Source: Bacteroides sp. (lineage in GTDB: Bacteria > Bacteroidota > Bacteroidia > Bacteroidales > Muribaculaceae). From it: DNA of 35,899 nucleotides. The stretch's first letter is position 1. Each line of letters begins with the position of its first letter. The position numbers were made by a program, and so were the translations under genes. Positions 5,343 through 16,022 of the stretch are shown here, in pieces. The stretch is from the NCBI GenBank assembly GCA_014801235.1, contig JAAVEM010000027.1:11569-47467 (forward strand), in the 5' to 3' direction. A model generated the notes under the pieces. It was not told the origin of the DNA, did no database searches, and worked only from the letters and a program-made list of their open reading frames with translations.

Positions 5343-6386
5343 TTAGTTGTTCTCAGGACGAAGCTTGCGAACAGTAACAGCAGTCTGCCACATTTCGCTC
5401 TCGCGAAGAGCTTTAAGCTCCTCTTCGAGCTTCTCGCGGTAGTCGGGCTTAGAGTTGCTGTCGATAGAGATCTGAGCCTCGTTGCCACACTTAACGCTTG
5501 CATAGAGTTTCTCAACCACAGGCTTGATAGCGTCGTGGAACGGACCCATCCAGTCGAGAGCGCCGCGCTGAGCGGTGGTAGAGCAGTTGGCATACATCCA
5601 GTCCATACCATTCTTTGCAAAGAGCGGCATCAGTGACTGAGTGAGCTCCTCAACAGTTTCGTTGAACGCCTCGGAGGGAGTGTGGCCGTTTTCACGGAGC
5701 ACTTCATACTGAGCGAGGAGAAGACCCTGGATTGCTCCCATGAGTGAACCGCGCTCGCCGGTGAGGTCGGAAGTAGCTTCGCGCTTGAAAGTTGTTTCAA
5801 AAAGATAGCCCGAGCCAACGCCGATACCAAGGGCGATGGTGCGCTCAAGAGCTCGACCGGTATAGTCCTGCTCAACGGCATAAGATGAGTTCAAGCCGCG
5901 TCCTTCAAGGAACATGGTGCGCAGCGATGTGCCTGATCCCTTGGGAGCCACCATGATAACATCGACATCCTTCGGAGGAACCACGCCGGTGCGGTCGCTC
6001 CAGGTGATGGCAAATCCGTGAGAGAAATAAAGAGCCTTTCCGGGAGTGAGATACTGCTTGATGGTGGGCCACACCGACATTACAGCCGCGTCAGAAAGAA
6101 GACACATGATGATAGTGCCGCGCTCGCAAGCCTCCTCGATGCTGAAAAGGGTTTCACCCGGTTTCCAACCGTCGGCTACAGCCTTGTCATAGGTTTTGCC
6201 CTGACGCTGTCCTACAATCACATTAAAACCATTGTCGCGGAGGTTCATGCTCTGACCGGGACCCTGAACGCCATAACCGATAACGGCGATGGTCTCGTCC
6301 TTGAGCACTTCTCTCGCCTTTTCCAAGGGGAACTCTTCGCGGATGATCACTGTTTCCTCAACTCCGCCAAAATTCATTTTTGCCAT
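5343..6386 (-). CDS. ilvC: Ketol-acid reductoisomerase
   Basis: Converts 2-acetolactate or 2-aceto-2-hydroxybutyrate to the dihydroxy acids of valine and isoleucine synthesis, using NAD(P)H and Mg2+. The sequence shows the Rossmann motif (AVIGYGVQGPGQ), the cofactor loop (VGQRQGKTYDKA), the Mg-binding helix (SDLTGERGSLMGA) and the C-terminal knotted domain. Length is 347 residues from MAKMNFGG, the usual class I size. I chose the ATG at 6386: the ORF-track start at 6419 would add 11 residues with no homology and overlap the upstream thioesterase stop. It is the last gene of the ilv operon, 19 nt after the thioesterase gene, and is followed by a strong terminator. Confidence 0.95.
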   Translation of the reverse strand: MAKMNFGGVEETVIIREEFPLEKAREVLKDETIAVIGYGVQGPGQSMNLRDNGFNVIVGQRQGKTYDKAVADGWKPGETLFSIEEACERGTIIMCLLSDAAVMSVWPTIKQYLTPGKALYFSHGFAITWSDRTGVVPPKDVDVIMVAPKGSGTSLRTMFLEGRGLNSSYAVEQDYTGRALERTIALGIGVGSGYLFETTFKREATSDLTGERGSLMGAIQGLLLAQYEVLRENGHTPSEAFNETVEELTQSLMPLFAKNGMDWMYANCSTTAQRGALDWMGPFHDAIKPVVEKLYASVKCGNEAQISIDSNSKPDYREKLEEELKALRESEMWQTAVTVRKLRPENN

Positions 6387-6405
6387 AGTTCTGCTAATTT
6401 TATTA

Positions 6406-7155
6406 TTAATTATTGTCAATAAATATTATACGAGCTTTTGAAAGGATTTCCTCGCCGCGAGATATGTAGCACTGGCAGGCTCCGGTGCCGTCATCCTGAC
6501 GCGCCACGACCACTTCGTCGCCATAACGCGCCTCGTGCATGAAAGCGATGTCGAAACGCTTCACCTCGTGACGGTCGTAAAAGTCAAGATTCCACTCATT
6601 AAGCAGCAGCTCGACATAACGCACCGTGTTGACGTGGCGGTTGAAATCGCAGTCGCAATAACGGAACCGATAAGGGGCACCGCACTCTATCGGGGAATCG
6701 GCGCGAAGATTCACGCGCGGAAACCGGTCGACAGGACAGCGCTTGTCGGAGATAACGTCGCGCATCGACTCAAGCAACGAAAGGTCGCCGCTCTGACGTT
6801 TTTTCACATCAATTCCCATCCACACCGACGAGACGTAGCCAAGCACTTCATCGCCCGACTTGATTTCAAAATTGCGCTGAGAGAAATGACGGTTCACGTC
6901 TTCGACCCAGGTGGTGAGCGAATAAGGCTCGTTCACCGCAGGCCAGCGGTTCATTTCGACCGACACGCGCGACAGAACCCACGCAAGCCCCTCGCGGCTG
7001 AGACGGGCGAAGCCCACGTCAAGATGATTGGCATGGAACGTAGCCACCTCAATCACTCTTGTCACAAGCAAGGGCAGGGGCATCTTAGCCTCGGGATTGC
7101 ACTCGCCCGCCGTCAGAAGATAATCGACCTTATATTCTTTTATGCGCTCACTCAT
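6406..7155 (-). CDS. Acyl-ACP thioesterase (FatA/FatB family)
   Basis: 249 residues with two hot-dog domains. The N-terminal half carries TRVIEVATFHANHLDVGF and SREGLAWVLSR; the C-terminal half carries FRYCDCDFNRHVNTVRY, the second hot-dog helix with the Asn/His motif used in catalysis in the plant enzymes. The family hydrolyses acyl-ACP to free fatty acids in the cytoplasm. A B. thetaiotaomicron member of this family and size has a solved structure (from memory, PDB 2ESS). The start overlaps the ilvN stop by four bases (ATGA), implying translational coupling. Finding it inside the ilv operon is odd for a lipid enzyme; a role in branched-chain acyl metabolism is possible but not shown. Confidence 0.85.
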   Translation of the reverse strand: MSERIKEYKVDYLLTAGECNPEAKMPLPLLVTRVIEVATFHANHLDVGFARLSREGLAWVLSRVSVEMNRWPAVNEPYSLTTWVEDVNRHFSQRNFEIKSGDEVLGYVSSVWMGIDVKKRQSGDLSLLESMRDVISDKRCPVDRFPRVNLRADSPIECGAPYRFRYCDCDFNRHVNTVRYVELLLNEWNLDFYDRHEVKRFDIAFMHEARYGDEVVVARQDDGTGACQCYISRGEEILSKARIIFIDNN

Positions 7156-7700
7156 AAGGTGTTGTTTTTACGCATATTCTGTTCGGTGAGATATATCGAC
7201 AGGTGCTCTTTGGTGTCCTTTGTGACAGCCACCCTGCCCGAGCGGACAAACTGGAGGATGTCATACTTCTGCAACTCCTGAAAGAGCGCCTCGGTCTCCT
7301 CGGTGTGACCCGTCTTCTCAATCACCACATACTCGCGGGTTATTTCAAGAATGCGCGCGTTGTGATTGCGAATAATCTCCTCGACGTTCTTGTCGTCAAG
7401 CAGCTGCCGTGTGGGGACTTTATAGAGAGCCACCTCCTGATAGACGATCTCCTCGTCAGTATAAAGGTATGCCTTCAAGACATCTATGCGTTTCTCAATC
7501 TGCTGCACGACGCGCTCCATCATGGGGCGGTTGCTGTAGCAGGTGATGATAAACTTGTGGATTCCTTCAATCGATGAAGGGCTCACCGACAGGCTCTCGA
7601 TGTTAAGACAGCGCCGGGTGAATATAATCGATATCTGGTTAAGCAGTCCCACCTGGTTCTCAGAGAATACTGCCACCGTAAACAATTGCTCATCCATCAT
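7152..7700 (-). CDS. ilvN: Acetolactate synthase small (regulatory) subunit
   Basis: 182 residues with an N-terminal ACT domain (FTVAVFSENQVGLLNQISIIF, then RCLNIESLSVSPS) that binds valine, and the C-terminal domain typical of IlvN/IlvH (EVALYKVPTR, ITREYVVIEKTG). It activates the catalytic subunit and gives feedback inhibition by branched-chain amino acids. Two ATG codons in tandem (7700 and 7697) could start it. It lies 11 nt after the ilvB stop and overlaps the thioesterase gene by four bases. Confidence 0.93.
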   Translation of the reverse strand: MMDEQLFTVAVFSENQVGLLNQISIIFTRRCLNIESLSVSPSSIEGIHKFIITCYSNRPMMERVVQQIEKRIDVLKAYLYTDEEIVYQEVALYKVPTRQLLDDKNVEEIIRNHNARILEITREYVVIEKTGHTEETEALFQELQKYDILQFVRSGRVAVTKDTKEHLSIYLTEQNMRKNNTL

Positions 7701-7711
7701 TGATCAGGGAT

Positions 7712-9424
7712 TTAGGATTTGTAAAATTCAGTTGGGTTAAGCATGATGGTGTCGACATTTCCACCGGCAGGTATCATGGGGAAAATCATGTCGGTCTCAT
7801 CGATGTTGACATTGAGCAGATAGGACGCATTATGCTCCAGCATGCGGCTGATGGCGCCGTCGAGCTGTTCGCGCGTCTCCACATTCTCAGCTTTTATTCC
7901 ATAAGCTCCTGCGAGAGCCACAAAATCGGGGTTGATGAGCGGTGTCTGTGAAAAACGGTCGTTGAAGAAAAGCGACTGCCACTGACGCACATTGCCGAGG
8001 AAGTTATTGTTGAGCAGGATTATCTTGACATCGGTTCCATATTCGAGAATCGTGCCGAGTTCCTGGATTGTCATCTGCAACCCGCCGTCGCCGACAAAGA
8101 GACACACCGTGCGTCCCGGCTCACCCATCTTGGCGCCGATCGCAGCCGGGAGTCCGAAGCCCATAGTTCCGAGTCCGCCTGAAGTGACCATCGACTTGGG
8201 CTTGGTGTAGCGGAAATAGCGGGCGGAGAACATCTGGTTCTGTCCCACGTCGGTCACCACGATAGCGTCATGACCGGTAGCCTCCGAAACTTTGTTCACG
8301 ACTTCGCCCATGGTCATTCTGCCCGATTCGGGATAAACTTCCCGCTTCACCACCTTTTCAAACTCGACCTCATCGGGACGGTCAAACGTCTTGAGCCACT
8401 CGGTGTGCTTGGCGCTCTTCACTTTTTCAAGAAGACGCTGAAGCACGCTCCGCGCGTCGCCATGAACACCCACCGTGACAGGGATATTCTTGTTAAGCTC
8501 CGAGGAGTCGATATCGATGTGGATGATTTTCGCGTCGGGGGCATAGGTCTTGACGTTGCCGGTCACGCGGTCGTCAAATCTCATTCCGACGGCAATCAGC
8601 AGGTCAGCCTTATTGGTGTTGATATTAGGACTGATATTGCCGTGCATGCCGAGCATACCTTTATAAAGAGGATGGTCGGAAGGCATGGTGGAGAGTCCGA
8701 GCAGAGTCGCCGCCACGGGAATGTCGGCAGTCTCGGCGAGCTTGGCAAGCTCCTTCTCGGCATTTGCGATCATCACGCCGTGGCCCGACAGAATCATGGG
8801 GCGCTCGGCGGCGTTTATAAGTTCGGCAGCTTTGTCGATAGCCGCTTCGTCTATTTCAGGCACAGGCTGATAGGAGCGTATGTACTCACATTTCTTGTGG
8901 GAGAATTCAGTCAGCCCCACCTGCGCGTCCTTGGTGAAGTCGAGCACCACCGGACCGGGGCGCCCGCTCGACGCGATGTAAAACGCGCGAGCCACTGCCC
9001 ATGACACATCCTCGGCGCGGCGTATCTGGTAGCTCCACTTTGTCAACGGCTGAGTCACGCCGACCACATCGGTCTCCTGAAACGCGTCAAAACCGAGAAA
9101 CGGCGTAGCCACCTGTCCGGTGATAACCACCATCGGGGTGCTGTCCATCAGTGCGTCGCCAATACCGGTTATGACATTGGTAGCGGCGGGTCCTGAGGTC
9201 ACAATCACCACTCCGGGACGTCCGGTGACACGCGCATAGCCTTGAGCGGCGTGAGTGGCGCCCTGCTCATGGCGCACCAGAATGTGGCGCAGGCGATCCT
9301 GATAATCATATAGTTTGTCGTAGACCGGCATTATCGAGCCGCCCGGATAGCCGAAAACGAGATTCACATCCTCGGCGATCAGAGCCTGCATCAATGCGTC
9401 AGCCCCTGAAATCATTTCACTCAT
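7712..9424 (-). CDS. ilvB: Acetolactate synthase large (catalytic) subunit
   Basis: 570 residues. Condenses pyruvate with pyruvate or 2-oxobutyrate using thiamine diphosphate and FAD, the committed step of valine and isoleucine synthesis. Visible signatures: the N-terminal TPP domain with the catalytic Glu53 in RHEQGATHAAQGYAR; the central FAD-binding domain (LLGLSTMPSDHPLYKGMLGMHG); and the C-terminal TPP/Mg motif GDGGLQMTIQEL...LLNNN. Full length for the family. It follows ilvD by 29 nt and precedes ilvN by 11 nt. Confidence 0.95.
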   Translation of the reverse strand: MSEMISGADALMQALIAEDVNLVFGYPGGSIMPVYDKLYDYQDRLRHILVRHEQGATHAAQGYARVTGRPGVVIVTSGPAATNVITGIGDALMDSTPMVVITGQVATPFLGFDAFQETDVVGVTQPLTKWSYQIRRAEDVSWAVARAFYIASSGRPGPVVLDFTKDAQVGLTEFSHKKCEYIRSYQPVPEIDEAAIDKAAELINAAERPMILSGHGVMIANAEKELAKLAETADIPVAATLLGLSTMPSDHPLYKGMLGMHGNISPNINTNKADLLIAVGMRFDDRVTGNVKTYAPDAKIIHIDIDSSELNKNIPVTVGVHGDARSVLQRLLEKVKSAKHTEWLKTFDRPDEVEFEKVVKREVYPESGRMTMGEVVNKVSEATGHDAIVVTDVGQNQMFSARYFRYTKPKSMVTSGGLGTMGFGLPAAIGAKMGEPGRTVCLFVGDGGLQMTIQELGTILEYGTDVKIILLNNNFLGNVRQWQSLFFNDRFSQTPLINPDFVALAGAYGIKAENVETREQLDGAISRMLEHNASYLLNVNIDETDMIFPMIPAGGNVDTIMLNPTEFYKS

Positions 9425-9453: not shown

Positions 9454-11280
9454 TTACAACTCTCTCACACCGCCCTTGTCGGCAGAGGTCACCATTGCGG
9501 CATAAGCTCTCAACGCTTTCGACACTTTGCGGTCGCGGTCAGCGGGGGTAAAAGCGTCCTTGCCGCGAGCCTCCTCCATGTGACGACGTGTTTCAAGCTC
9601 CTCGTCGGAGAGATGGACGTTGATAGAACGCGCCGGTATGTCGATCTCGATTATATCGCCATTGCGAATCAGCCCTATGTTTCCTCCGGCTGCCGCTTCA
9701 GGTGATATATGCCCGATGGAGAGTCCCGATGTTCCGCCTGAAAAACGTCCGTCGGTGATGAGCGCGCACTCTTTGCCCAGATGTTTCGACTTGATGTAGC
9801 TCGTTGGGTAGAGCATCTCCTGCATACCCGGTCCCCCCTTGGGACCCTCGTAAGTGATGACTACGATATCGCCGCTCACCACCTTGTCGCGCAAAATGCC
9901 GTCGACGGCGGCTTCCTGAGAGGTAAACACCTTTGCCGGTCCGCGGAAACGGAAAATGCTTTCATCCACACCCGCCGTTTTCACCACGCATCCGTCAAGA
10001 GCGATATTGCCTTTCAACACGGCAAGTCCGCCGTCCTTCACATAGGCATGGTCGAAATCGCGGATGCAACCTTTCTCACGGTCGGCATCGAGTTTGTCAT
10101 AATAATTGGACTGGCTTCCGAGTTTTAGATTGCGTTCGTTGCAAGGGGCGCTGAGCCACAGGCGGCGAGCCTCCTCGCCGAAGTTCTCTCCTTCGATGGC
10201 ATACTTGTCAATAGCCTCGCCGAGGGTCATGCGGTCCACGCGCTTCACGGCGGTATCGATAATGCCATGATCGGCAAGCTGCTTCATGATCGATAGGATG
10301 CCGCCCGCGCGATTCACGTCCTGAATGTGGAAATGGGAGTTGGGAGCGACTTTACACAACACGGGGGTGACGCGCGACAATCTGTCGATGTCAGCCATGG
10401 TGAAGTCGGCTCCGGCTTCGTTTGCCACGGCAAGTAAATGGAGCACGGTGTTGGTCGAGCCTCCCATGGCGATGTCAAGCGTCATGGCGTTGAGCATAGC
10501 CTGGCGGGTGGCGATATTGCGGGGCAGAACGCTCTCGTCGCCGTCGTTATAGTAAGCGAAAGTATTCTCCACAATCTGACGCGCAGCCTTGCGGAAAAGC
10601 TCCTTGCGGTTGGCGTGAGTGGCAAGGATGGTTCCGTTGCCGGGGAGCGCGAGTCCTATAGCCTCGTTAAGGGAGTTCATAGAATTGGCGGTAAACATGC
10701 CTGAGCATGAGCCGCAGGTGGGGCACCCTTTCTGTTCAAGCAGCTTCACCTTGTCATCGCTCACGGAGGTGTCGGCGCTCTCTATCATGATATCGATAAG
10801 GTCGACAAACTTTCCGTCGACTTCGCCTGCCTCCATCGGACCGCCCGACACGAATATAGTGGGGATATTGAGTCGCATCGCAGCCATGAGCATTCCCGGG
10901 GTCACCTTGTCGCAGTTGGAGATGCACACCATGGCATCAGCCTTGTGGGCGTTGACCATGTATTCGACCGAGTCGGCGATAAGATCGCGCGAAGGCAACG
11001 AATAGAGCATGCCGTCGTGTCCCATGGCGATTCCGTCGTCGATAGCGATGGTGTTGAATTCGGCGGCAAAACATCCGAGACTCTCTATCTCCTCTTTAAC
11101 TATCTGACCTATCTCGTGAAGATGAGTGTGACCCGGCACAAACTGAGTGAACGAGTTCACCACAGCGATAATCGGTTTGCCAAACTGAGATTCTTTCATT
11201 CCATTGGCGCGCCACAGCGCTCTTGCGCCAGCCATGCGACGTCCGTCTGTACTTTCGGAGCTCCTTAATTTCATGCTCAT
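9454..11280 (-). CDS. ilvD: Dihydroxy-acid dehydratase
   Basis: 608 residues. Iron-sulfur enzyme that dehydrates dihydroxy acids to the 2-oxoacids of valine and isoleucine. Cluster-binding motifs CDKVTPGM (Cys123) and [17 protein letters not shown] (Cys186-192) are present, as are the C-terminal motifs [14 protein letters not shown] and [15 protein letters not shown]. Length matches the E. coli-type enzyme. First structural gene of the operon; its start follows a 195-nt leader carrying an attenuator (features at 11317-11514). An ATG at 11274 (MKLRSS) is an alternative start. Confidence 0.95.
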
Positions 11281-11316
11281 TATAATTGCATTTTTATTTA
11301 TATCATATTAACTGAA

Positions 11317-11351
11317 ATGCCTCCCGGCTCGCTTTTGCGACGGAGAGGCAT
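11317..11351 (-). terminator. Attenuator terminator hairpin of the ilv leader
   Basis: On the minus strand ATGCCTC pairs with GAGGCAT, continued inward by CCG/CGG and CGC-AAAA-GCG. The hairpin is followed by TTCAGTTAAT, a moderate rather than strong U-rich tail. A competing stem can form between CGAGGAGGGG (11394-11385, end of the leader peptide) and CCTCTCCGTCG (11348-11338, the 5' arm of the terminator). This is the arrangement expected of a transcription attenuator. Confidence 0.6.
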
Positions 11352-11374
11352 CGTGTATCGGAATATCATGAACG

Positions 11375-11449
11375 CTAACAATCACCCCTCCTCGATTCAA
11401 GAACGGTAATGACGACAGAAATTAGAGATAGCGACAAAGCGTCAGACAT
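11375..11449 (-). CDS. ilv operon leader peptide (24 residues, Leu/Ile/Val-rich)
   Basis: ATG at 11449, stop TAG at 11377-11375. The core reads LSLSLISVVITVL: nine of 13 consecutive residues are Leu, Ile or Val. It starts ~27 nt after the predicted transcription start and is too short for the ORF track. Its last codons contain CGAGGAGGGG, which can pair with the 5' arm of the downstream terminator. Inference: when branched-chain aminoacyl-tRNAs are scarce, a ribosome stalls on these codons, the antiterminator forms and ilvD-B-N-thioesterase-C are transcribed. When they are plentiful the ribosome reaches the stop codon, masks that arm and the terminator forms. Confidence 0.75.
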   Translation of the reverse strand: MSDALSLSLISVVITVLESRRGDC

Positions 11450-11482
11450 ATATTGTACCTTTCAGTTTTTTGTTTGTGACTG

Positions 11483-11514
11483 CAAATTTATAGCATTTTG
11501 CAATAAAACCCAAA
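11483..11514 (-). promoter_or_regulatory. Promoter of the ilv operon
   Basis: On the minus strand TTTG (11514-11511), 20-nt spacer, TAAATTTG (11490-11483). A near-perfect Bacteroidetes promoter. The start near 11476 gives a ~195-nt leader, whereas the other promoters seen in the window give 5' UTRs of about 15-35 nt. Confidence 0.75.
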
Positions 11515-11572: not shown

Positions 11573-12529
11573 CTATTGCAGCTTTATGTCTTTTATGTCA
11601 ATCAGGTGGTGGATTATGGCAAATATGGCAAGCCCCGACTGGGAATGTATCTGCAATTTCGAAGCTATGTTGCGGCGGTGGGTAGTGACCGTGTTGATCG
11701 AGAGACAGAGCTCGTCGGCAATCTCCTTATTGGACTTTCCTTTTGCCACACAAACGATTACCTCCTTCTCCCTCTCGCTGAGAGATTCGGGCGACTTCCC
11801 GAGGTCAACGCTTTTTTCATGAACCGCCGGAACAGCGCTCGCCTTGGCGACTATGTTCTGCTCAAGTTTTTTCACCGCCGGCACGAGCAGCTTGTTTTCG
11901 ACCATACAGTGGGACACGAGATCAGCCTGGCAATTGATGATGTCATAGAGCACCGAGTTGAGCGTGTAGTTGTCTTTCTGCCGGTAATGCCTGATTATGA
12001 TGTCCTTGAGCTCGTTAAGGCGGTCGCCCATGTCAGTGTGGGTCGCTGAATACTCTTCGATGCTGAAATCAGTGTTGCGATTTCCGGCTATAAGTTGCGA
12101 AATATACCCGAAAAGGGTTTCATTCTCATACTCCATGTGACGGCGCACCTCAATCACATAGTCGTCAAAATACTTTATCATGAGAAACGCCACGTCGTCG
12201 ATGCTCGAATTGTTGACGGCGTCGATAAGCTTGCGCCTTATCAACGGGAGATTAAAGTCAAGGAAATAGCTGTGGGCCTTTTTCAGGTATCCCATCAATG
12301 AATCGGGCGACACTTCATAGGAAGCCGCCGCTTTTGAGCAAACAAGATTTGCCACGGCGAGAAACGTAGGACAGTCTATGTCGTTTTCCTCACAAACCTC
12401 GGCTATTGTGCTGTCGCCGAAACCAAAAGGCACTGAAAAACGGCTTATCACGAGAAGCAATAAGTTGTTATCGTCGATTGCGTCACGCAATCGATCAGTA
12501 GAGCGGTATTCCGCCATCTTCTTACCCAT
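11573..12529 (-). CDS. RIC/hemerythrin-like di-iron domain fused to LuxR HTH regulator
   Basis: 318 residues. Residues ~30-60 (FSVPFGFGDSTIAEVCEE) resemble the ScdA N-terminal domain of RIC/YtfE proteins but lack its paired Cys. Residues ~80-225 form a hemerythrin-like helical bundle with candidate iron ligands His86, His131 and Glu135 (HMEYE), His164 (THTDMG), His207 and Glu211 (SHCMVE). Residues ~249-310 are a LuxR-type HTH (LSEREKEVIVCVAKGKSNKEIA, SINTVTTHRRNI). RIC proteins repair iron-sulfur clusters after nitrosative stress; here the fold is inferred to act as an iron, NO or O2 sensor controlling the HTH. It has its own promoter (12559-12589). The ilvD promoter begins ~59 nt beyond its stop. 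ilvD encodes an Fe-S enzyme, but no functional link is shown. Confidence 0.75.
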   Translation of the reverse strand: MGKKMAEYRSTDRLRDAIDDNNLLLLVISRFSVPFGFGDSTIAEVCEENDIDCPTFLAVANLVCSKAAASYEVSPDSLMGYLKKAHSYFLDFNLPLIRRKLIDAVNNSSIDDVAFLMIKYFDDYVIEVRRHMEYENETLFGYISQLIAGNRNTDFSIEEYSATHTDMGDRLNELKDIIIRHYRQKDNYTLNSVLYDIINCQADLVSHCMVENKLLVPAVKKLEQNIVAKASAVPAVHEKSVDLGKSPESLSEREKEVIVCVAKGKSNKEIADELCLSINTVTTHRRNIASKLQIHSQSGLAIFAIIHHLIDIKDIKLQ

Positions 12530-14433: not shown

Positions 14434-15000
14434 TTATACCTGTAGCGAGGATGTGTCGCCAAAGAGTTTGTAAAGCTCATCAAAACGCTCAAGCGAGTCG
14501 CCGCCATAGCGCGCTATCGAATTGCGAACACGGGTGAAGGGCTTTTTCTCCATCGATCCGCTCTTGGAATAAAATTTGTCGGCATAGCAAATGAGTTTTT
14601 CAAGCATCGTCACCGGACAATAGTCCTCGACGGGAAGGTCAAGATCCTGCATCAATATATCCTCCTTGGTGATTCCGGTGCCGGTGTGGCGCTCGGCGAC
14701 ACGTGCCCAAGCCTCGGGAGCGCCTTCGCGTCTCAGAAGCTTTCCGCCGATAACGCCGTGGCGCATATAGGATGCCGCGCCGTGGCAGTGGATGCCCGGA
14801 GCGTTCGTGCCGAAAATACCGACGTCATGAAGCATAGCCGCCCCCTCCACGTCAAGAGGGTCAAGACCGATAGCCCTCGTCAGATTTATGGCGAGGGCTA
14901 AGTCAGCAACCTGACGGGCATGCTTCATGTAGATGGCACGAAGCTCGTTATCGTCAGGATAATACTTGTCTATGATGGCTTGAAAATCAGTGTTAGCCAT
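14434..15000 (-). CDS. HD-domain phosphohydrolase
   Basis: 188 residues from the ATG at 15000; the ORF track starts one codon earlier at a TTG. The HD fold is shown by a His in KHARQVADLALAI, the HD doublet in MLHDVGIF, HCHGAASYMRHG and a later Asp in LICYADKFYSK. The family hydrolyses phosphoester bonds, often of nucleotides, using a bound metal; the substrate cannot be told. Its ATG shares one base with the ilvE stop codon (TGATG), so the two genes are translationally coupled. Confidence 0.8.
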   Translation of the reverse strand: MANTDFQAIIDKYYPDDNELRAIYMKHARQVADLALAINLTRAIGLDPLDVEGAAMLHDVGIFGTNAPGIHCHGAASYMRHGVIGGKLLRREGAPEAWARVAERHTGTGITKEDILMQDLDLPVEDYCPVTMLEKLICYADKFYSKSGSMEKKPFTRVRNSIARYGGDSLERFDELYKLFGDTSSLQV

Positions 15001-16022
15001 CAATCGATAATTGTGTTCCAGTTGTGGATATCTTCCTCTTCGCCAAGCTGGATGCCGCGAAGCTTGTTGTAGAGAGCCGTCACGATGGGACCCGGCTTGC
15101 CGTCGTTGCTGACCACATACTTCACGCCGGTGTCGATATCGTCGATTTCAGCCACGGGCGAAGCCACCGCCGCTGTTCCACACGCAGCAGCCTCCTGAAT
15201 TTCAGCAAGTTCTTCAAGCGGAATGTGGCGCTGTTCAACCTCTATGCCCATGTCGCGGGCGAGCTGCATAAGGCTGTTGTTGGTGATCGAAGGGAGAATC
15301 GATTCAGAAGCCGGAGTGATGTACTTGCCGTCCTTAATGGCAAAGAAGTTGGCAGGACCGCACTCGTCGATATACTTCTTCTCTTTCGGGTCAAGATAGA
15401 GCACGGCTGAATAGCCCAAGGCGTGAGCCCGCTCGCCGGCATCGAGACTTGCGGCATAGTTTCCGCCCACTTTCCAGCGTCCGGTTCCTTTAGGAGCCAC
15501 TCGGTCAAATTCGCGCATTATGCATATATTGGTGGGCTTGAATCCTTCCTTGAAATAGGGTCCCACTGGAGTCACGAGAATAAGGAACAGGTATTCCGAC
15601 GCGGGTTTAACCCCGACCTGAGCCGACATACCGATTTCAAGCGGGCGAATGTAGAGCGACGCGCCGCTGCCGTAGGGGGGAACAAAACGCTCGTTCAGCT
15701 TCACCACCTTCTTCACCATTTCAGTAAAAAGCTCCACAGGCACGGGCGCCATCATGATGCCTTTAGCCGACTCGATGATGCGCTTTGCGTTTTCTTCGAG
15801 GCGGAACACTCTCACCTTTCCGTCTTTTCCGCGGAAAGCCTTGAGACCTTCGAAAATTTCCTGACCGTAGTGAAGCGAAGTCGCTGCGATGTGCATAGTA
15901 ACGGTTTCAGACGACGACACTTCGATTTCGCCCCATTTTCCGTTGCGGTAATAGCAACGCACATTATAATCGGTGGGGATATAGCCGAATGACAGATTGC
16001 CCCAGTCTAACTCATTATTCAT
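15000..16022 (-). CDS. ilvE: Branched-chain amino acid aminotransferase
   Basis: 340 residues, fold-type IV PLP enzyme of the BCAT2-like group. The Schiff-base Lys lies in GTGRWKVGGNYAAS. Other family marks are SLHYGQEIFEGLKAF, GSGASLYIRPL, DECGPANFFAI and the C-terminal EAAACGTAAVASPV with GPIVTALYNKL. It interconverts Val, Ile and Leu with their 2-oxoacids, using 2-oxoglutarate/glutamate, completing the pathway begun by the ilv operon 4 kb away. It has its own promoter (16051-16080) and no leader peptide was seen, so the attenuator would not control it. Confidence 0.95.
   Translation of the reverse strand: MNNELDWGNLSFGYIPTDYNVRCYYRNGKWGEIEVSSSETVTMHIAATSLHYGQEIFEGLKAFRGKDGKVRVFRLEENAKRIIESAKGIMMAPVPVELFTEMVKKVVKLNERFVPPYGSGASLYIRPLEIGMSAQVGVKPASEYLFLILVTPVGPYFKEGFKPTNICIMREFDRVAPKGTGRWKVGGNYAASLDAGERAHALGYSAVLYLDPKEKKYIDECGPANFFAIKDGKYITPASESILPSITNNSLMQLARDMGIEVEQRHIPLEELAEIQEAAACGTAAVASPVAEIDDIDTGVKYVVSNDGKPGPIVTALYNKLRGIQLGEEEDIHNWNTIID

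Follow-up and report, generated by a model that had tools for sequence, protein, structure and literature searches.

A candidate leader-peptide attenuator upstream of the ilvD operon in a Muribaculaceae genome, with counterparts across Bacteroidales

Leader-peptide attenuation is established for enterobacterial ilv operons (ilvGMEDA and ilvBN). The locus described here raises the question of whether a gut bacterium of another phylum controls its branched-chain amino acid (BCAA) synthesis genes in the same way. The window, meaning the whole stretch of 35,899 nucleotides that was analysed, comes from a Muribaculaceae-type genome whose nearest named relative, judged by IlvD, is Heminiphilus faecis (86% identity); its own assembly is 59% complete. 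On the minus strand of the window, ilvD, ilvB, ilvN, an acyl-ACP thioesterase gene and ilvC form a tight operon (Table 1). The thioesterase gene sits between ilvN and ilvC, and the ORFs overlap. Immediately upstream of the ilv promoter, a gene at 11573-12529 (minus strand) encodes a fusion of a hemerythrin-like domain with a LuxR-type DNA-binding domain; its product resembles iron-sulfur repair (RIC/YtfE) proteins, and the neighbouring IlvD belongs to an Fe-S enzyme family. A branched-chain aminotransferase gene (ilvE_II) lies nearby at 15000-16022 (minus strand), and its upstream region is without a BCAA-rich leader ORF.

Table 1. Operon genes and predicted leader elements, in window coordinates
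Feature	Positions	Strand	Basis
ilvD, dihydroxy-acid dehydratase, first gene of the operon	9454..11280	-	NCBIfam NF009103 / TIGR00110
ilvB, acetolactate synthase large subunit	7712..9424	-	TIGR00118
ilvN, acetolactate synthase small subunit	7152..7700	-	TIGR00119
Acyl-ACP thioesterase	6406..7155	-	PF01643 + PF20791
ilvC, ketol-acid reductoisomerase	5343..6419	-	TIGR00465
-7 promoter box TAAATTTGC, Bacteroidota sigma-ABfr-type	11482..11490	-	motif match; kept in closest relatives
Leader peptide ORF MSDALSLSLISVVITVLESRRGDC, 24 codons	11375..11449	-	same length in L083, L084
Probable control codons GTC GTC ATT (Val-Val-Ile)	11408..11416	-	site of peak L/I/V frequency, 65 leaders
Segment 1, 5' part of leader ORF, can pair with segment 2 (protector/pause hairpin)	11424..11449	-	MFE fold
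Segment 2, antiterminator 5' arm CGAGGAGGGGT	11384..11394	-	duplex with segment 3
Segment 3, antiterminator 3' arm and terminator 5' arm GATGCCTCTCCGTCG	11338..11352	-	
Segment 4, terminator 3' arm CGGGAGGCATT, then weak U-tract TCAGTTAAT	11316..11326	-	

Placed from the -7 box, transcription would start at about 11475-11480 and give a 5' untranslated region of about 195 nt, the length that the first-pass annotation had assigned to the ilvD leader. That annotation had also described shorter untranslated regions elsewhere, and at three further sites in the window (12558, 19457 and 24741, all on the minus strand) a -7 box does stand 27 to 32 nt before its gene. Bacteroidota ribosomes are independent of Shine-Dalgarno pairing. 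The 24-codon ORF that had been proposed within the leader is present, with Leu, Ile or Val (L/I/V) at 9 of the 13 positions of its core, LSLSLISVVITVL, as claimed. The VVIT(V/I)L core of the peptide is common to L083 and L084, and the core DNA GTCGTCATTACC is unchanged in these two and in the 86%-identical L085; beyond the core, a comparison of close relatives showed no conservation of the peptide.

Next to the ORF stand the two mutually exclusive stems that had been claimed, one between segments 2 and 3 and the other between segments 3 and 4. The motif CGAGGAGGGG, said to lie at the end of the peptide, starts at 11394, at the end of codon S18, and continues through R-R-G ahead of the stop codon; its stated partner CCTCTCCGTCG was found at 11348-11338, within the terminator hairpin's 5' arm. 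This hairpin, GATGCCTCTCCGTCG-CAAAAGCGAGC-CGGGAGGCATT at 11352-11316 (minus strand), has 37 nt, a small internal stem and a folding energy of -21.2 kcal/mol. The pairing of segment 2 with its own segment 3 is better than with swapped partners. Across the leader as a whole, the folding energy is mildly low (z = -1.67, single sequence), and because of this value the case for an attenuator rests on comparison and not on one fold. Chance could also supply such an ORF, since an ATG ORF with at least 9 L/I/V in 13 residues arose in 5/1500 dinucleotide shuffles of the 220-nt region, and one locus is not overwhelming against that rate. Given the shuffles and the whole-leader z value, the single locus is suggestive, not proof.

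To set the locus among its relatives, we collected ilvD upstream regions from 80 loci of GTDB genomes and from about 110 sites across 297 genomes of the window's family, with ilvD start positions set by tblastn. Leaders were selected for an ORF in which at least 8 of 13 residues are L/I/V and for a hairpin with T's behind it, 5 to 90 nt past the stop codon; three leader ORFs were shifted by hand to start at the proximal ATG. This yielded 65 non-identical Bacteroidales ilvD leaders in which an L/I/V-rich ORF precedes a terminator-type hairpin, drawn from the window's genus, Bacteroides, Phocaeicola, Tannerella, Alistipes, Odoribacter, Marinifilum, Prolixibacteraceae and others. One record titled Neisseria gonorrhoeae strain DSM 9188 (L080) holds an IlvD 68% identical to that of the window, and its label may merit checking.

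Because the selection made no use of the antiterminator, its pairing was open to an independent test in these leaders. The duplex between the leader end and the terminator 5' arm averaged -19.0 kcal/mol within a locus, -14.9 kcal/mol when the leader end came from another locus and -12.1 kcal/mol when it was shuffled; the mean z of the own duplex was -2.8, and the own partner stood above the middle of the swapped ranking in 56 of the 65 leaders. In the window's genus (g1), segments 2, 3 and 4 have changed together: segments 3, 2 and 4 read CCTCTCC, AGGAGGGG and GGGAGGC in the window, GCTCCCG, CGGGAGC and CGGGGGC in L106, and AGCTCCCGG, CCGGGAGC and CGGGGGCT in L113, so that L106 and L113 have kept the pairing with each of the three segments different from that of the window. 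Between segments 1 and 2, pairing is visible in aggregate (own -15.8 against swapped -13.0 kcal/mol; median rank 8 of 64); in the window's own leader it is not above shuffle (z -0.1). Thus, the check on relatives that had been proposed for a conserved leader ORF and stems found both, with antiterminator arms that change jointly. The recurrence of matched pairing in 65 leaders from many genera refutes the view that the ORF and stems of the window are accidental, to which we attach almost no weight.

We then considered where the ORF lies relative to the stems. Counted back from the antiterminator core, the L/I/V codon fraction is 0.83 to 0.88 at codons -8 to -6 and drops toward the core, to 0.52 at -4, 0.16 at -2 and 0.12 at -1; the median distance of the leader stop codon beyond the start of the core is 6 nt (65 leaders). 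In the window, GTC GTC ATT, which belongs to the GTCGTCATTACC block, stands 5 to 7 codons ahead of the antiterminator arm. This phasing fits the classical model, in which the antiterminator arm would be free while a ribosome is stalled and would be covered by one that terminates.

What the sequences themselves show is a leader ORF, mutually exclusive stems that have changed jointly in relatives, and control codons at a set spacing; from these we infer the following course for the start of transcription, leader translation, stalling, termination and the response to amino acids. RNA polymerase would start near 11478, and a ribosome would begin the leader peptide. When charged Val, Ile or Leu tRNA is short, the ribosome would stall around GTC GTC ATT, leaving segment 2 free to pair with segment 3 as the antiterminator, and transcription would run on into ilvD. 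When BCAAs are plentiful, the ribosome would reach the stop codon and cover segment 2; segment 3 would then pair with segment 4, and transcription would end near 11310. We also folded stepwise the RNA that a ribosome would leave free, with a footprint assumed to reach 13 nt beyond the first A-site base. With the A-site on any codon from L8 to I13, folding gives the antiterminator as long as segment 4 does not yet exist (-18 to -21 kcal/mol), and with the A-site on the stop codon the terminator alone can form (-21.8 kcal/mol). With segment 4 present, the terminator is more stable than the antiterminator whatever the ribosome state; the choice between the two must therefore be kinetic, as in classical attenuators. 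Taken together, the 65 leaders, the co-changing arms and the fixed distance of the control codons support the attenuator reading of the ilv operon that the annotation had put forward. We place at about 0.88 the probability that a ribosome-mediated transcription attenuator couples BCAA supply to expression of ilvDBN, the thioesterase gene and ilvC. The switch would most likely turn the ilv genes down when Val, Ile and Leu are plentiful.

The U-tract had been named as the weak point of the model, and ATTTCAGTTAAT is indeed modest, with a score of 3.7. Mean scores were 3.9 for related Muribaculaceae leaders and 5.4 for other Bacteroidales leaders, and three terminator-like hairpins elsewhere in the window scored 4.4 to 5.7. 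A generic promoter and terminator scan of the window listed no terminator at the ilvD leader, because the T-run is short. The weak tail CAGTTAA (window 11305-11316, minus strand) is common to several Muribaculaceae leaders (L081, L084, L086, L100 and L105). Owing to this weakness in the window's lineage, we considered whether the same leader switch operates with a different output, the hairpin of segments 3 and 4 mainly limiting translation of ilvD or permitting Rho-dependent termination. Weak tails resembling that of the window in most related Muribaculaceae leaders, set against T-runs in other Bacteroidales, are consistent with this, as is the placement of the hairpin just 23 to 40 nt from the ilvD ATG in many leaders. 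However, in the window the ilvD start codon lies outside the hairpin, 35 nt beyond its end, and orthologous leaders elsewhere end in clear T-runs, which makes termination the likely ancestral output. We therefore regard such an output as unlikely. Termination could be incomplete or could depend on assistance, or the element might act on ilvD translation as well.

The attenuator is patchy within the family. Of the ilvD leaders in the window's genus, 12 of 13 have it, as do 9 of 11 in genus g6; by the same criteria it is present in 0 of 17 leaders in g7 and 0 of 17 in g9. L115 (g6) and L102 (g11) also carry it on inspection. Two g7 leaders that we inspected (L087 and L096) have a promoter-like box close to ilvD. 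Several genera of the family keep ilvD without the attenuator, a point that weighs against the attenuator reading. An ilvD match was present in only 149 of the 297 genomes of the family (93 of 204 among those of good quality), and loss of BCAA synthesis seems to be common there.

An L/I/V-rich ORF could instead encode a small hydrophobic membrane protein with no relation to the stems, since membrane segments look similarly rich in these residues. Other amino-acid operons, which we surveyed in 60 genomes of Bacteroidales, bear on this. The layout of peptide plus terminator hairpin recurs before hisG, where 24 of 30 loci (L221-L250) had at least 4 His in 8 residues; examples are L226, MNNTLHHHHHHCNSSR, and L243, from the window's genus, MTSRLNQHHHHHFLQH. 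Before trpE (L251-L277), 19 of 27 full-length loci had at least 3 Trp in 8 residues, as in L265, MTNRTWWWWISDSRFP. For leuA (L191-L218), a good part of the loci had a Leu/Ile-rich leader peptide, and L218, from the window's genus, carries MNTTLLSLSLTSGLTLSK and a strong U-tract. Terminator hairpins follow each of the three types of peptide. Such a match between residue and operon lends the attenuation mechanism strong, independent support. These His and Trp runs, the phasing of the L/I/V positions to the antiterminator arm and the lack of conservation outside the core make a membrane protein very improbable.

The long, structured leader could also suggest a metabolite-binding riboswitch or a T-box element controlling ilvD. 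An Rfam search matched no family to the leader of the window or to those of 11 relatives, its only hit in the window being a tRNA elsewhere. What is conserved among the leaders is codons and complementary arms, with no aptamer-like block, and we give a riboswitch or T-box hardly any credence. The lack of an Rfam match probably reflects leaders that conserve their logic rather than their sequence.

How does this leader compare with known systems? Like the enterobacterial ilv attenuators, it joins a peptide rich in the regulated residues to a mutually exclusive antiterminator and terminator ahead of a BCAA biosynthetic operon. It differs from them in its phylum, its Bacteroidota-type promoter, its Shine-Dalgarno-independent ribosomes and the absence of a matching Rfam leader family, and also in its Val-Val-Ile core close to segment 2 and its weak U-tract. 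Two comparative surveys of attenuation, Vitreschak 2004 and Lopatovskaya 2010, may cover Bacteroidetes; among the papers that we searched, we found none that describes a Bacteroidales ilv attenuator. The Corynebacterium ilvBNC attenuator or uORF (PMC10272879, PMC11857589) is likewise the leader of a BCAA operon, with a uORF or alternative hairpins ahead of the ilv genes, but that system is actinobacterial and controls ilvBNC, whereas the window's operon begins with ilvD. The ilv leader peptides of Staphylococcus aureus and Listeria (PMC5794164, PMC5864092) likewise place an attenuator on BCAA synthesis genes including ilvD, but they belong to Firmicutes and are combined with the repressor CodY. 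In Flavobacterium psychrophilum, of the same phylum as the window but of the family Flavobacteriaceae, control of amino-acid operons by leader-peptide attenuation has been predicted on "strong clues" (PMC9723704), in a passage that does not name the ilv operon. In Bacteroides thetaiotaomicron, short ORFs "reminiscent of leader peptides" have been described (PMC7366714), and amino-acid attenuators have been ascribed mainly to gamma-proteobacteria (PMC3766115).

As read from sequence, the proposed mechanism is classical ribosome-mediated attenuation, and the ilv leader is well supported by comparison; the point of interest is its wide occurrence in a phylum where attenuation is barely documented. 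We hold it an even bet that ribosome-mediated attenuation is general and ancestral for Bacteroidales amino-acid operons (ilv, leu, his and trp), perhaps independently of the proteobacterial systems. If this is true, it would imply tight coupling of transcription and translation on such leaders, in a phylum whose ribosomes do not rely on Shine-Dalgarno pairing. These results suggest that leader-peptide attenuators are a routine form of control in Bacteroidales, whose leaders would serve as reporters of amino-acid supply in gut bacteria and would allow the coupling of ribosome and RNA polymerase to be tested in Bacteroidota.
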